Of a stretch of 64,000 nt of DNA, positions 6,044-54,568 are shown in pieces. Within the stretch, counting starts at the first letter, position 1. Each line of letters starts with the position of its first letter. The position numbers and the translations under genes were made by a program. The stretch comes from Lutimonas halocynthiae (lineage in GTDB: Bacteria > Bacteroidota > Bacteroidia > Flavobacteriales > Flavobacteriaceae). Under the pieces are notes generated by a model. That model made no database searches. It had not been told where the DNA came from and worked only from the letters and a program-made list of their open reading frames with translations. Location of the stretch: the NCBI RefSeq assembly GCF_030409835.1, contig NZ_JAUFQO010000016.1, positions 434,001 through 498,000 on the forward strand, given 5' to 3'.

Positions 6044-7617
6044 GAACTGCAAGAAAGCATCGAACAACCAACTTTGTTTCTTGCCCAGTCAGGCCTTTTT
6101 GCAAACCATTTTTTATGTTCAAGTTGTTCCTCATAGGGTTTTTTTAGCAAATCAAACAATTCCTCTATCACTCCATAATCGCCTTTATCAGCAGCATCAA
6201 TGGCCAATTGAGCCATATAATTTCGAAGCACGTATTTGGGATTAACCTGATTCATGCTTTGTTTTCTCTCTTCATAAGAAACGGTTTCCAATTTCAGTCT
6301 GGATGCATAGGCTTCAAACCATTTTTCCCATTCTTTTTCGATAATTTTAGTTATTTCACTAGGTACATAAAAGGCATCCGCAATAATTTCAAGTCCATTT
6401 GAAACTTTTTTAGCGCCAAACTGACTTAAATTTCTAAAGAAAATACTCATGTCAGTTTCTGTTAGATGTAAGATTTTCTCCAGATCTTTAATCAATAATG
6501 CATCTGCCTCGTTTTCTTGAAATAAACCGAGTTTAGTGCGCATCATATCATTGTATTTTATCATATACTTTTTTCCATAGGCAGCTAAAATAGTTTCCAG
6601 CCCACTCGCCTCTTCAATAAGGGGGTAAAGGGCATTGGCCAGCTTATATAAGTTCCATTGAATAATTTCAGCTTGAGTTCCAAATTTGTAGCGTTTAAAT
6701 TCTCTGTCTGTTGTATTTGGCGTCCATCCAAAATCAAACCCCTCTAACCATCCATATGGGCCATAATCTATGGTAAGACCTAAAATAGATGTGTTATCTG
6801 TATTCATAACACCATGAACAAATCCAACACGTTGCCAATGCACTACCATATCTAAATTGAGATTTACCACTTCATTAAAAAATGCCAAGTAAGTCTCTTT
6901 AGATGGTTGCCCAAGGTGAGAAAAGAAATGTTTAATGGTATAATCAACCAATGTTTTTAAGGTTTTAACGTCTCCTTGAGCTGCTAAAATCTCAAAATTT
7001 CCAAAGCGCAAAAATGTAGGCGCAATTCTCGATACAATAGCTCCCTTCTCATAGGCCGGGTTTCCGTCGTAAAGAACGTCTCGCATCACCTTGTCTCCTG
7101 AGAGTGCTAATGACAAGGCTCTTGTACTTGGTACGCCTAAATGATGCATTGCCTCGCTGCATAAATATTCACGCACAGATGATCGCAAAACTGCCAAGCC
7201 ATCGGCTGTTCTAGAGTATGGAGTTTCCCCAGATCCTTTAAGCTGCATGGCCCATCGTTTACCCTGGTGCGCTACTTCAGCTAAATTAATGGCCCTTCCA
7301 TCACCCAACTGACCTGCCCAGTTTCCAAACTGATGCCCACCATAACACATGGCATAAGGATTCGTATTGGCTAATACAGTATTTCCTGTAAATACGTTTA
7401 AAAATGCTTCACTCTTTGCTTCTGCTTCAGACATGCCTAAGGCTGATAGCATTTCCGGAGAAACATGTATCATTTCTGGTTTAGAGGTTTTCTTAGGCGT
7501 CACGAATGAGAAACAAGCCTCTTTTACCTGTCTTCTGTTATTTTCAAGAATTGGGTCGGCCGGTAATTCTGTATTAAATGTATCTTTTATATGTAAATTC
7601 ATATTATATATTTCCAT
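6040..7617 (-). CDS. selO: SelO/YdiU family protein adenylyltransferase (AMPylase)
   Basis: 525 residues, full length for bacterial SelO. Family landmarks are present in order: GQLGDGRA (102-109), QLKGSGETPYSR (125-136), HGVMNTDNTSILG (268-280) and TIDYGP (282-287), the last two being the metal/ATP-binding Asn and Asp region of this pseudokinase fold. SelO transfers AMP to Ser/Thr/Tyr of target proteins and is linked to oxidative stress. The tail ends GCSMLSCSS. In eukaryotic SelO a selenocysteine lies near the C-terminus; here ordinary cysteines are encoded and no TGA is read through. An alternative start is the ATG at 7602. First gene of a coupled operon with the 88-aa protein and msrA. Confidence 0.93.
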   Translation of the reverse strand: MEIYNMNLHIKDTFNTELPADPILENNRRQVKEACFSFVTPKKTSKPEMIHVSPEMLSALGMSEAEAKSEAFLNVFTGNTVLANTNPYAMCYGGHQFGNWAGQLGDGRAINLAEVAHQGKRWAMQLKGSGETPYSRTADGLAVLRSSVREYLCSEAMHHLGVPSTRALSLALSGDKVMRDVLYDGNPAYEKGAIVSRIAPTFLRFGNFEILAAQGDVKTLKTLVDYTIKHFFSHLGQPSKETYLAFFNEVVNLNLDMVVHWQRVGFVHGVMNTDNTSILGLTIDYGPYGWLEGFDFGWTPNTTDREFKRYKFGTQAEIIQWNLYKLANALYPLIEEASGLETILAAYGKKYMIKYNDMMRTKLGLFQENEADALLIKDLEKILHLTETDMSIFFRNLSQFGAKKVSNGLEIIADAFYVPSEITKIIEKEWEKWFEAYASRLKLETVSYEERKQSMNQVNPKYVLRNYMAQLAIDAADKGDYGVIEELFDLLKKPYEEQLEHKKWFAKRPDWARNKVGCSMLSCSS

Positions 7618-24320: not shown

Positions 24321-25643
24321 TTATTTTCTTTTATTTACAATTGGTGGTTTAACCTTATTCTTTAAATGATCTGCCAAGATCTTGTCTACTAACTCATCTT
24401 TGGTAAGGTGATGAAATACAGTGTGGATCTGGCTCCTGAATTCAGGTGAAATTTCACGGTTTGGTTTGCTTTTAAATATTTTTTTTGCCCATAGCAAAGC
24501 ATTGTTTTCTTCTATATTTTTAGCAGCAGCTTTTTGGTGCTTTGTAAAGCTTAGACCAAGCTCTTTTTCGAAATCAGGAATTTCAATTTCCTCTTCTTTC
24601 TGGATTACACTCAAAGAAAAACCTTTTGCTCCTGCTCTGGCTGTTCTACCACTTCTATGCACATATGTTTCATAAACAGCTGGTAAATGGTAATTCACTA
24701 CATAAGAGATTTCCTTAACGTCTATTCCACGAGCTGCCAGATCTGTTGCTACCAGAATATCGATATGTCCTTCTCTGAATTGCCCCATAATTCGATCGCG
24801 AATGCCCTGACTCAGACTTCCATGTAGTGCTCCTGAAGAGAATTTATTAATCGCTAAATTTTTGGCCAATTTATTAACAGCTGCTTTGGTTTTACAAAAT
24901 ATGATTCCTCTTTCTCCTTCTCTTGAGCTTAAAAAATGCATCAAAACATCCAATTTTTCAATAGGCTCTACTACTACATATTGATGATCAATCCCTTGAT
25001 GTCCAACAGTATCCATGTCAGCACTCACCTGGGTAATATGTTTTGACATATAATTTTGAATCAACTGTTTGATCGTGCCTGGCATGGTTGCGGTAAAGAG
25101 CCATGTTCGTTTCTCTTTAGGAAGTGAAGTGAAGATCTCATCTAGCCCTTGTTTTAATGAGCCAATCATTTCATCAGCCTCATCGAGAACCAAATAGCCT
25201 ATCTGGCTCAAATCAACAGCACCTCGCTTCATTAAATCAATTAACCTTCCTGGTGTAGCAACTAAAATATGAGTCGCTTGAGTCAAACGCTCAATTTGTG
25301 GTTTAATCGGAATTCCTCCACAGGTTGCTGCTATAGATAGCTCAGGCATATTACTGGCATATGACTGAAGATTTTGAAATATTTGTTGACCTAATTCACG
25401 GGTCGGAGCAAGTATCAAAGCCTGTACATTAGGTTTAGTTGCATCTACTAATTGTAAAAGAGGCAAACCAAAGGCTGCGGTTTTACCTGTCCCTGTCTTT
25501 GCCAGACCAACAAAGTCTTTTTTTTGTTCTAAAAGAATAGGGATCGATTTTTGTTGAATATCAGTAGGAACATCTATTTTTAGTTCTTTCAAACTTTTTT
25601 GAAGCGCTCCATTAATACCAAGGGAAGAAAAATTTGGTGACAT
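24321..25643 (-). CDS. DEAD-box RNA helicase, RhlE-like
   Basis: 440 residues. All DEAD-box motifs are visible: AKTGTGKT (48-55), PTRELGQQ, TPGRLIDL, DEAD (154-157), motif III as TATMP, DLAARGIDV and HRSGRTAR. The short basic C-terminal tail (ENNALLWAKKIFKSKPNREI and a KNKVKPPIVNKRK end) probably aids RNA binding. Role: RNA remodelling in ribosome biogenesis or decay. Transcribed ahead of the DEFD helicase gene; the D-peptide unit and its terminator lie just upstream. Confidence 0.88.
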   Translation of the reverse strand: MSPNFSSLGINGALQKSLKELKIDVPTDIQQKSIPILLEQKKDFVGLAKTGTGKTAAFGLPLLQLVDATKPNVQALILAPTRELGQQIFQNLQSYASNMPELSIAATCGGIPIKPQIERLTQATHILVATPGRLIDLMKRGAVDLSQIGYLVLDEADEMIGSLKQGLDEIFTSLPKEKRTWLFTATMPGTIKQLIQNYMSKHITQVSADMDTVGHQGIDHQYVVVEPIEKLDVLMHFLSSREGERGIIFCKTKAAVNKLAKNLAINKFSSGALHGSLSQGIRDRIMGQFREGHIDILVATDLAARGIDVKEISYVVNYHLPAVYETYVHRSGRTARAGAKGFSLSVIQKEEEIEIPDFEKELGLSFTKHQKAAAKNIEENNALLWAKKIFKSKPNREISPEFRSQIHTVFHHLTKDELVDKILADHLKNKVKPPIVNKRK

Positions 25644-25711: not shown

Positions 25712-25742
25712 TATAAAAAAGGCCCCTTAAAAAGGAGCCTTT
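25712..25742 (-). terminator. Intrinsic terminator after peptide D
   Basis: On the minus strand the stem AAAGGCTCC / GGGGCCTTT (one G-U pair) is followed by six T residues. It starts nine bases after the stop codon of the 36-aa peptide gene and separates that gene from the helicase pair. Confidence 0.85.
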
Positions 25743-25750
25743 AGTTATGA

Positions 25751-25861
25751 TTATCTAAATCTTCGTTTGACATTCCAATTGACTGCCTTCGCGTTGCTAA
25801 AGTAAAGTGTCTGAACACCCTCCTTTGAGCTTACCATTGTTTTAATTTCGTTAATTTTCAT
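25751..25861 (-). CDS. 36-aa basic peptide D of the W-motif micropeptide family
   Basis: ATG at 25861, TAA at 25751-25753, 36 residues, no signal peptide. The C-terminal half reads LYFSNAKAVNWNVKRRFR, matching the other three family members by FSN, K-x-V-x-W and R-x-F; the linker after FSN is three residues shorter and the terminal Gly is lost. It has a full Bacteroidota promoter (25883-25912) and an intrinsic terminator directly behind it, so it is a dedicated single-gene transcript. No known family recognised. Possible roles are a regulatory or RNA-binding micropeptide or a precursor peptide; these are guesses. Confidence 0.7.
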   Translation of the reverse strand: MKINEIKTMVSSKEGVQTLYFSNAKAVNWNVKRRFR

Positions 25862-29047: not shown

Positions 29048-29101
29048 TTGGCTTCTATTATCACTTTAGACTATGACATTTTCTTTGTGAATTAATTGCA
29101 T

Positions 29102-29136
29102 AAAAAAAACCTTAACAAAATTGTTAAGGTTTTTTA
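29102..29136. terminator. Bidirectional intrinsic terminator
   Basis: Stem CCTTAACAA / TTGTTAAGG flanked by A-tract on the left and T-tract on the right, so it can end transcription both ways. It follows peptide A (minus strand, stop at 29198) and insulates the sulfite oxidase operon. Confidence 0.85.
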
Positions 29137-29197
29137 CGGTGGAATTAATTTTTGTTCCATACATCATTTTTTAAGTTAGAATCAATATTACATTTTT

Positions 29198-29311
29198 CTA
29201 ATAACCGTAGTTTCTGTAATTTGACCATCTGATGCGCTTACTTTCTCTAAAGGTTGAAAAATTTGTAAATCTTGTTCCATTTGATGCGTTACTGTCGATT
29301 GTTGTTTTCAT
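29198..29311 (-). CDS. 37-aa basic peptide A of the W-motif micropeptide family
   Basis: ATG at 29311, TAG at 29198-29200, 37 residues. The C-terminal half reads FSTFRESKRIRWSNYRNYGY; the N-terminal half is polar and poor in hydrophobics, so there is no signal peptide. KR[IV][RK]WS-x-x-R-x-[FY]G is shared with the tandem pair at 54242-54509. An exact -7 box (29338-29345) lies 27 bases upstream and a strong terminator follows, so it is a single-gene unit. Its upstream neighbour is the hsp20 gene. Family not recognised. Confidence 0.75.
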   Translation of the reverse strand: MKTTIDSNASNGTRFTNFSTFRESKRIRWSNYRNYGY

Positions 29312-29337
29312 GATATATATGTTTAATTATTATACTG

Positions 29338-29345
29338 CAAATGTA
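29338..29345 (-). promoter_or_regulatory. -7 promoter box of peptide A
   Basis: On the minus strand TACATTTG, an exact match to TAnnTTTG, 26 bases before the ATG. No clear -33 TTG at the usual distance. Confidence 0.6.
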
Positions 29346-29415
29346 TATGACGAAGGCGTATTGGTAAATTCTGACTTACCGAACTGTAGATAAACAATGA
29401 CGAATTGTAAAAATT

Positions 29416-29446
29416 GGCCTTCTCCCTGTCTAAATCGAAGAAGGCC
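29416..29446 (-). terminator. Hairpin, possible weak terminator
   Basis: Perfect eight-base arms GGCCTTCT / AGAAGGCC with a 15-base loop. On the minus strand it is followed by AATTTTTAC. It may be a second stop behind the hsp20 terminator or a structured RNA element. Confidence 0.4.
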
Positions 29447-29651: not shown

Positions 29652-30128
29652 TTATGAAATCTCTATAGTCCTGGCTGGCTTTGGCTTGGCCTCTTCCTTC
29701 TTTGGAATGCTAACGGTCAGAATCCCATCAGTATAACTTGCATTTATCGCCGTGTCATCAACTGTTTCAGGCAACAAGAAGGTTCTTTTAAATGAAGCAT
29801 AGACAAATTCTTTCCTTGTATAGTTCTCCTTAGTATCTTCCTCAACTTTAATTTCAGCAGCAATAGACAATTCTTCATTCTCAAGTCCGATAATAAAATC
29901 AGTCTTTTTGAATCCCGGAACAGCCATATCTAGTATATAAGCTTCGTCTGATTCTATAATATTCACTTTAGGATTTGACAATCCTTTATTGAAATCTTTA
30001 CTTTTTGCCAGTTGCAGTTCATCATTGAATAATTCATCCATTAATGAAGCCCATCCTCCGTAGTTACCTAAATTTCTTTTATCTCTTTGAAGAATGTTTC
30101 TGTTTTTTGTAAGCATTAAATTGTTCAT
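29652..30128 (-). CDS. Hsp20/alpha-crystallin family small heat shock protein
   Basis: 158 residues. The alpha-crystallin domain spans about 48-145: NIIESDEAYILDMAVPGF opens it, FKRTFLLPETVDDTAINASY is the central conserved stretch, and DGILTVSIPKKE is the A-x-x-x-n-GvL-like closing motif. The tail ARTIEIS has the I-x-I motif used for oligomer formation. ATP-independent holdase for unfolding proteins in the cytoplasm. Single gene with a strong terminator; a perfect 15-base inverted repeat lies 108 bases upstream. Confidence 0.93.
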   Translation of the reverse strand: MNNLMLTKNRNILQRDKRNLGNYGGWASLMDELFNDELQLAKSKDFNKGLSNPKVNIIESDEAYILDMAVPGFKKTDFIIGLENEELSIAAEIKVEEDTKENYTRKEFVYASFKRTFLLPETVDDTAINASYTDGILTVSIPKKEEAKPKPARTIEIS

Positions 30129-54071: not shown

Positions 54072-54163
54072 AAATTCTTTTTTTTTATATTCTTCATAAT
54101 AATTTTTTTGCTCCTATTCTATGATATAGCAACGATTCATAGTTAATATTTTGTTAATATAGT

Positions 54164-54193
54164 ACTTTGTTTAGCATAGTACTGTAACAAAGT
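54164..54193. promoter_or_regulatory. Perfect eight-base inverted repeat upstream of the tandem peptides
   Basis: ACTTTGTT (54164-54171) and AACAAAGT (54186-54193) are exact reverse complements, 14 bases apart, about 50 bases upstream of the first peptide start. The flanking TAGTACT is also duplicated (54160-54166 and 54177-54183). Candidate operator. Confidence 0.5.
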
Positions 54194-54241
54194 TAGTATT
54201 TGTGGCGTCTATATAGTAGAAACCAATTAAAAACAAGAATT

Positions 54242-54358
54242 ATGAAAACCTTTTTAAGCACTCCGACAGAATCCGAATCAAGAAAGTACGTTACTTTTTC
54301 TAATTTTCGAAACACCAAAAGAATCAAATGGTCAGAATACAGAAATTTCGGTCATTAA
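54242..54358 (+). CDS. 38-aa basic peptide B of the W-motif micropeptide family
   Basis: ATG at 54242, TAA at 54356-54358, 38 residues. The second half reads FSNFRNTKRIKWSEYRNF before a final GH; the first half is rich in Ser, Thr and Glu. No signal peptide and no cysteine. It shares KR[IV]KWSE-x-R with peptide C, 37 bases downstream, and with peptide A at 29198. The pair ends in one strong terminator. No exact -7 box was found; near matches with wrong spacing occur at 54163-54169 and 54194-54202. Confidence 0.75.
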   Translation: MKTFLSTPTESESRKYVTFSNFRNTKRIKWSEYRNFGH

Positions 54359-54395
54359 TCAAAAAATCAAAGTCTAATACTACAAACAAATTACC

Positions 54396-54509
54396 ATGAC
54401 AACAAATATGAATATATCTACAACACAGGCCAGAGAGCATTTGTATTTTAGCAATTATAAGTATACAAAAAGAGTTAAATGGTCAGAACACAGACATTAT
54501 GGATTATAA
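54396..54509 (+). CDS. 37-aa basic peptide C of the W-motif micropeptide family
   Basis: ATG at 54396 (a second in-frame ATG at 54408), TAA at 54507-54509, 37 residues. The second half reads YFSNYKYTKRVKWSEHRHYG. Aligned without gaps to peptides A and B over the last 20 residues. Substitutions such as Ile/Val, Arg/Lys and Phe/Tyr are conservative, which suggests protein-level selection. It is co-transcribed with B and followed by the terminator at 54530. Confidence 0.75.
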   Translation: MTTNMNISTTQAREHLYFSNYKYTKRVKWSEHRHYGL

Positions 54510-54529: not shown

Positions 54530-54568
54530 AAAACCTATTCAACAATTTGGATAGGTTTTTTTTTGTTT
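54530..54568 (+). terminator. Intrinsic terminator of the tandem micropeptide unit
   Basis: Stem AAACCTATTCAA / TTGGATAGGTTT (one G-U pair) followed by eight T residues, 21 bases after the stop of peptide C. Confidence 0.9.

Follow-up and report, generated by a model that had tools for sequence, protein, structure and literature searches.

Two small open reading frames (ORFs) stand in tandem at positions 54242 and 54396 of a 64,000-nucleotide stretch of Lutimonas halocynthiae DNA, which as a whole is referred to here as the window. What do such short frames encode, how is their expression governed and what could their products do? A sequence-only reading of the window had grouped them with two ORFs elsewhere in it, as a family of four peptides of 36–38 residues sharing a C-terminal pattern around a tryptophan. 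The best explanation of the comparisons described below is that the pair belongs to a micropeptide set found across the Flavobacteriaceae, most arrays of which appear to form a regulon.

The four ORFs of the window and their transcription units

All four ORFs were verified in the window, with the coordinates and products claimed for them (Table 1). Their C-terminal region is indeed common to them, but its conserved part is not the FS[NT] element of the pattern first proposed; it is [ST]-K-x3-W-x3-[RK]-[RN]-[YF]-x(1,2)-end. The window has three ORFs of 18–50 aa with the strict form, W-x3-[RK][RN][YF] near the C-terminus; 100 Markov-1 resamplings gave 0.18 on average and never more than two. ORF 54396 (...WSEHRHYGL) is close to the strict motif and fits a looser one, W[SN]-x2-R-x-[FY]; unrelated frames near 7219, 31087 and 53648 of the window fit this looser motif too. 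ORF 25751 fits a sister class, W-N-x-K-R-R-[FY]. The proposal that each unit has its own terminator holds for transcription units, the ORFs at 29198 and 25751 having one each, but not for single ORFs, as the tandem pair shares one. The hairpins of the 29198 and 25751 units come from RNA folds; a simple terminator scanner gave neither.

Table 1. Features of the micropeptide units in the window
Feature	Position	Strand	Evidence
Micropeptide ORF 1 of tandem pair, 38 aa, MKTFLSTPTESESRKYVTFSNFRNTKRIKWSEYRNFGH	54242..54358	+	ORF and profile match
Micropeptide ORF 2 of tandem pair, 37 aa, MTTNMNISTTQAREHLYFSNYKYTKRVKWSEHRHYGL	54396..54509	+	ORF and profile match
Palindromic operator TACTTTGTTTAGCATAGTA, consensus as before PadR operons	54163..54181	+	Sequence comparison
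ECF-type promoter TGTAAC-N17-CGTCTA, abutting operator	54183..54211	+	Pattern match
Intrinsic terminator common to the 54242/54396 pair	54530..54559	+	Scan and RNA fold
Single micropeptide ORF, 37 aa, MKTTIDSNASNGTRFTNFSTFRESKRIRWSNYRNYGY	29198..29311	-	ORF and profile match
Terminator hairpin of 29198 unit	29099..29138	-	RNA fold, z -5.4
Hsp20/alpha-crystallin gene directly upstream of 29198 unit	29652..30128	-	Pfam PF00011
Micropeptide-like ORF, W-N-x-K-R-R-F class, 36 aa, MKINEIKTMVSSKEGVQTLYFSNAKAVNWNVKRRFR	25751..25861	-	ORF and profile match
Terminator hairpin of 25751 unit, ahead of DEAD-box helicase gene 24321-25643	25718..25742	-	RNA fold, z -3.4

The ORF at 25751 is the weakest of the four, since a counterpart was looked for next to the corresponding helicase gene in genomes G012 and G015 and not seen (the G015 match is without the helicase start). 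Its unit has, by eye, a housekeeping-type promoter and stands ahead of the DEAD-box helicase gene. At loci L402, L404 and L405 (genomes G004, G005 and G016) a DEAD-box helicase gene is convergent to a micropeptide unit; in the window, 25751 precedes the DEAD-box gene. Counterparts of ORF 29198 in G011 and G013 likewise lie behind an Hsp20 gene. Neither the promoter nor the operator of the ECF/PadR module described below was found at the 29198 or the 25751 unit. A stretch conserved ahead of both the 29198 unit and its counterparts, TTTTACAATTC[AG]TCA...TCGGT (window 29310-29430, minus strand), is unlike that module and is perhaps a direct-repeat site for a regulator.

A micropeptide family of the Flavobacteriaceae

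The family is larger than the four members first counted. A profile made from those four gives 13 matches in the same genome, five of them on the contig of the window (four inside the window and one just outside), one on contig C1 and seven on contig C12. C12 carries a row of five ORFs with a period of ~114 bp, four of which encode MRTTIFNNSKRVRWSAHRNYAIKS and one a 22-aa variant; tandem copies within one genome are near-identical. Units are short, with 1-5 ORFs of about 19-45 codons each. Among 199 Flavobacteriaceae genomes, a wider alignment of the 36-38 aa class has matches in 26, and a sister class of 28 aa (the MRTLNNNQLTGTLNGTKSNQWNSKRRYR type), discovered via its promoter, occurs in 70. 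The 28-aa peptide is often followed by one of 44 aa that ends in W-K-G-x-K-R-Y-A-H or similar. Together the two profiles match 91 of the 199 genomes, some of the matches being marginal (E up to 1e-3). The sequence-only reading had made the existence of homologues elsewhere a check on its own proposal, and these matches provide them; the micropeptides are spread over many Flavobacteriaceae genera and are not strain-specific.

The first search for relatives, which used the profile of four sequences, had its best match outside the Flavobacteriaceae at an E of 0.015. The 28-aa profile, run on 295 genomes sampled at class level, among them some Flavobacteriaceae, matched a single one, inside a 356-aa frame and probably by chance. 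Profile comparison of the 28- and 37-aa classes aligns the Trp module in register, with a probability of 10.6% and P 0.003, which is not decisive; comparison of the 28- and 44-aa classes gives a probability of 1.5%. Upstream of 37-aa copies at L096, L105, L110, L125, L126, L222 and L230 there is a family of small ORFs containing RPRIYFRIGFGWNTDRWYD.

Profile searches of Pfam and NCBIfam gave no credible match (the best of 58 members, a single one, reached E 0.029 in Pfam), in line with the earlier reading, which knew of no family to match the peptides. A PDB profile search with the 37-aa alignment returned a best E of 0.27, which is chance, as are the single weak matches of the 37-aa set in PHROGs and PADLOC. 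The 28-aa class was absent from the annotated phages and viral contigs searched, and the window peptide 54242 was not found in plasmids. Rfam, run on the window and eight array loci, placed no family at the window or at the arrays. A Flavo-1 RNA (RF01705, 46.5 bits) was seen at L233:4967-5081 (+), in Aquimarina macrocephali, not adjacent to the array. The literature, judged from titles and abstract starts and with subscription papers and preprints largely outside the search, held nothing resembling the family; an earlier description is possible.

Conservation at the codon level, another check set by the earlier reading, is evident in both classes, with dN/dS between 0.06 and 0.36. For ungapped pairs of equal length and at least 55% identity, the Nei-Gojobori method gives 0.06-0.17 for the 36-38 aa class (531 pairs) and 0.09-0.36 for the 28-aa class (1060 pairs), each with third-position excess; the pairs share ancestry and are not independent, so the values are descriptive. 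Within the genus, ORF 54242 has a pN/pS of 0.10-0.16 when compared with six close orthologue loci and of 0.34-0.37 for two others that are more distant, and ORF 29198 one of 0.30-0.32. The 54396 peptide is identical in G014 (L131), where the DNA has four synonymous differences from the window; its pN/pS, computed from that identical copy, is 0.28-0.50. In sequence terms, such values show strong purifying selection on the micropeptide ORFs as translated sequence. It is hardly credible that what is conserved is an RNA repeat, the ORFs in it being incidental. Near-identical tandem copies in a genome would suit a repeat of this kind, but synonymous change far exceeds non-synonymous change, the conserved residues of the C-terminal module are encoded by several synonymous codons and the Rfam search was empty at these loci.

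The earlier suggestion that the C-terminal motif is under selection is supported, and the Trp stands at a fixed distance from the end of the peptide. Among 150 peptides from the 68 promoter loci described below, 147 have the Trp 8 or 9 residues from the C-terminus; the filter behind this set required basic residues and admitted Trp at 6-13, so that it is partly conditioned, though not on 8-9. In 140 unique peptides the frequency of S/T at W-5 is 0.88, of K at W-4 0.74, of R at W+4 0.87, of R/N at W+5 0.92 and of Y/F at W+6 0.94. The N-terminal parts are conserved within each class and different between classes, the differing ones including those of the promoter-found peptides of G066, G077, G146 and G209 and of the near-motif peptide of G114. 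One of the peptides has only 19 aa. As stop codon the 150 peptides have TAA in 125 cases, TAG in 23 and TGA in two.

Such an arrangement brings nascent-chain arrest to mind, in which the C-terminal module would work at the stop codon, from within the ribosome tunnel, and the peptide would be irrelevant once released. The steady distance from Trp to stop, the variation of the N-terminal parts between classes and the existence of a 19-aa peptide all speak for such an arrest. We nevertheless consider it improbable: the N-terminal parts are conserved inside each class, the mixture of stop codons means that no RF2-specific stop is kept and no regulated downstream gene is evident, as the units of the window end in terminators and neighbours vary over the loci. 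A leader or attenuator peptide is disfavoured on the same grounds, with terminators after the window units, varying genes downstream of the loci and no regulated gene evident on the transcript.

In the first class, 112 unique peptides have a median net charge of +6, a pI of 11 and a GRAVY of -1.2; they are basic, as the earlier reading had it, and also hydrophilic. Around the Trp, the hydrophobic moment does not exceed that of shuffled sequence (mean z -0.17 for a helix and -0.45 for a strand), and the idea of an amphipathic helix was rejected for this reason. An AlphaFold model with two helices, at residues 10-20 and 26-35, is weak (pLDDT 69, pTM 0.29). With such a GRAVY the peptides are not the hydrophobic transmembrane peptides expected of a type I toxin. 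It is quite improbable that they coat a leaky inner membrane and so take on part of the role of PspA; they are cationic, have one Trp and would come under a regulator of envelope-stress type (see below), but the moments, the GRAVY and the weak model all count against membrane binding.

Secreted or modified products, such as RiPP precursors, leaderless bacteriocins or signals, might also be small, cationic and encoded in tandem copies. They are a very improbable reading here, as the peptides are hydrophilic, occur across many genera rather than in particular strains and lack a recurrent gene for modification or export next to the 80 promoter loci, where the commonest neighbours were inspected by sight, one member each. 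For RiPP precursors in particular, these commonest neighbours gave, by sight, no recurrent candidate for a modification enzyme; one encoded elsewhere is possible. Leaderless bacteriocins are disfavoured too: the peptides are hydrophilic, no amphipathic signature was seen and no immunity or export genes recur nearby.

Promoter, palindrome and the PadR operon

Many units are preceded by a palindrome, TACTWTGYNNNRCAWAGTA, that abuts the sequence TGTAAC...CGTC, which we take to be an ECF-type promoter consensus, with TGTAAC as -35 and CGTC as -10 element, 15-18 bp apart. No paper giving this consensus was found in the literature searched. The loci that were fetched gave 133 profile hits, of which those with E < 1e-3, or in L108, were kept: 127 ORFs in 69 clusters. 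The pattern GTAA[CT]-N15-18-CGTC stands before 41 of the 69 clusters, as compared with a mean of 0.12 clusters for shuffles and none for the reversed control, and the operator, allowing two mismatches, before 35 (reversed, none). Clusters with several ORFs account for most of the latter: 29 of the 35 such clusters have the operator, as do 6 of the 34 that consist of one ORF.

The association also appears when the promoter is taken as the starting point. The exact DNA pattern alone, scanned over named genomes, gave at least 117 stretches, and the 80 listed ones were examined. Motif peptides lie within 750 bp downstream in 68 of these 80 listed loci and within 750 bp upstream, on either strand, in none. 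Five of the 12 misses lie at sequence ends; L194 starts with a family peptide, L230 with an FGWHTD-like ORF and L254 with a Trp-less tandem peptide, and L193 and L221 have no peptide in the available sequence. Near-motif peptides follow the promoter at L215 and L222, and tandem 33-aa peptides without Trp at L189 and L196. At L209 and L252 the promoter is ahead of an ordinary exported-looking protein, and at L206 nothing recognisable follows. L189, L196 and L254, from Christiangramia/Gramella, have the same promoter and then tandem 33-aa peptides, e.g. MKTFLSNTKNRRSFMNTEANSSTFSFSNRRRYF, with a basic tail.

A degenerate form of the promoter pattern (up to three mismatches) occurs in 90 of the 199 genomes, with three hits for the reversed control. 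Promoter and profile hits coincide in 77 genomes; the promoter alone is found in 13, the peptide alone in 14 and neither in 95. The 13 promoter-only genomes include four with motif peptides (G066, G077, G146 and G209), one with a near-motif peptide (G114) and four in which the site is, by position, that of the PadR operon (G107, G127, G221 and G223). The site precedes a receptor-like gene in G023 and an ordinary protein in G083, and those of G117 and G187 are without assignment.

Seven micropeptide units are present in the own genome. Those at 29198, 25751 and C1:301343 are without either module, the unit near 150 kb of C12 has a doubtful ECF-like match alone and C8:501068 has an ECF-type promoter without operator. 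To judge from sequence, not every copy belongs to the PadR circuit discussed below (29198, 25751 and C8:501068 do not). Exact ECF-type sites number four in this genome, with two hits per strand for the reversed control. By sight, what follows three of the four is in turn a gene for a MacB-like permease, one for a serine hydrolase and a small ORF, and no gene next to these three sites looks like a sigma gene. Such neighbours would fit an envelope-stress response, though this is no proof of one.

With one mismatch at most, the palindrome has three sites in the own genome: at the tandem pair, at the five-ORF row and at a DUF4870-PadR-HAAS/PspC operon. This count is weak when taken alone, because the reversed palindrome has two. 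Upstream of PadR at the best 30 PadR matches, among which the own and G011 loci had helped to shape the operator consensus, the palindrome is present within one mismatch at 29 loci and within two at the remaining one; at these loci the reversed form needs 2-5 mismatches and one shuffle each 3-5. A strict operator scanned over 40 genomes has 24 sites, 14 before micropeptides, seven before PadR operons and three elsewhere. The DNA itself shows that most arrays have a palindrome abutting what looks like an ECF-type promoter, and that the same palindrome lies upstream of a conserved PadR gene. Sequence evidence for regulation through the palindrome and the putative ECF-type promoter is good.

The conserved PadR gene is present in 186 of the 199 genomes, and just one of the 91 peptide-bearing genomes is without it, a 73%-complete assembly. 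PadR is near-universal and the peptides occur in about half of the genomes, so PadR would have other work as well. The sequence-only reading had suggested looking for a partner gene that always co-occurs. No neighbour is such a partner: the commonest neighbour family, found at 22 of the 80 loci, is encoded on the opposite strand and for the most part lies upstream, and neighbours otherwise vary. The PadR operon, with its shared operator, is a candidate partner in trans.

A look-alike palindrome, TACTTTG-N5-CAAAGTA, accounts for 12 of 20 fetched palindrome loci not linked to peptides (L326-L341) and is mostly found ahead of an operon for a winged-helix regulator and a CreD-like membrane protein (names by sight). 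The rest of the 20 are six PadR operons and two loci, L329 and L335, that fit the PadR form yet are neither. At L335 (G023:C1:15258) a strict operator of the PadR type stands ahead of a long ORF that by sight resembles a TonB-dependent receptor. This receptor-like gene is possibly a further member of the regulon.

A HAAS-PadR pair with PspC has been proposed to form a signalling system for envelope (membrane) stress, and the GxP groove of HAAS to be a site of protein-protein contacts (PMC11237479). The peptides might be feedback ligands of their own circuit, with PadR or the groove of HAAS (or else an ECF/anti-sigma pair) as the binding site, and adjust the stress response in the manner of an intracellular peptide hormone. 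In favour, besides the proposed groove, are the operator sites of the own genome, seen at the PadR operon and two peptide operons and nowhere else, and the structure of the peptides themselves, a conserved C-terminal short linear motif behind a variable N-terminal part. We think such ligands unlikely, since many genomes keep PadR without detected peptides, so that the circuit needs none of them, and since a charge of +6 is in our judgement atypical for a ligand of this sort.

The proposed circuit and comparable systems

PadR proteins are generally repressors. As the operator touches the -35 element, the arrangement would fit repression by PadR. We infer that PadR, informed by its membrane partners DUF4870 and HAAS-PspC, would bind at the peptide operons as well as at its own and repress both until envelope stress occurs. 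An ECF sigma factor would then drive a multi-ORF mRNA, so that much peptide could be made quickly. What the peptides do next is a matter for guesswork. The basic C-terminal module with its Trp and Tyr/Phe and its free C-terminus may dock on a single conserved partner inside the cell, RNA or the ribosome being the likeliest, and may thereby adjust gene expression in stress; the multiple copies may serve dosage.

On balance, the micropeptides are probably a main output of a PadR-HAAS-PspC envelope-stress circuit, with a conserved intracellular partner as the probable target. RNA or the ribosome is preferred as that partner because the peptides are very basic and hydrophilic, with one Trp near arginines, and because no amphipathic signature and no recurrent export or modification gene beside the loci were seen; for RNA binding this is a guess from composition. 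Taken further, these ideas would give a stress circuit across the family whose main dedicated output is a set of peptides of 19-45 aa, with N-terminal parts free to change and one module anchored to the C-terminus, which act as intracellular ligands on a universal machine of the cell such as the ribosome, the strength of output being set by how many tandem copies there are. We put this forward tentatively, as a proposition that may well be wrong. The family and the circuit would be new, and the function could still be of a known kind.

About half of the Flavobacteriaceae genera sampled have a chromosomal peptide family for which Pfam and NCBIfam contain no matching model; its genes lie below common gene-calling length limits, which is perhaps the reason. 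An entire stress output may have gone unnoticed. The defined promoter and operator make the family findable by DNA pattern and directly testable, and the predicted PadR-HAAS-PspC stress system would gain a concrete output in the Flavobacteriaceae. The question raised is what a short peptide with a conserved C-terminal tail binds under envelope stress.

Other bacteria make small products that invite comparison. FbpA-C and SR1P of Bacillus subtilis and SRA of Escherichia coli are very short, basic or soluble, and are made from short transcripts under stress or nutrient control. The micropeptides resemble them as very short basic products but have no credible relation in Pfam or NCBIfam, or, for the 37-aa class, in the PDB; we know of no tandem rows or C-terminus-anchored Trp module in FbpA-C, SR1P or SRA. 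The arginine-rich RNA-binding peptides of the lambda N type have a short Arg-rich stretch beside a Trp, and so do the micropeptides, which differ in being chromosomal, in their spacing, in the C-terminal placement of the stretch and in the absence of the 28-aa class from the viral sequences searched. Leaderless bacteriocins of the aureocin A70 type are encoded by tandem genes for cationic peptides of 30-45 aa without leader and are hydrophobic and accessory; the micropeptides share the tandem genes, the charge, the shortness and the lack of a leader but are hydrophilic and spread over many genera. The nearest likeness in regulation is to the PadR-HAAS-PspC module, as far as the accessible text of its description goes (PMC11237479): the own-genome PadR operon has the PadR, HAAS and PspC domains and an operator in common with the peptide operons. 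That text makes no mention of a micropeptide output, and at the peptide loci, in a further difference from the module as described there, the operator adjoins a putative ECF-type promoter.
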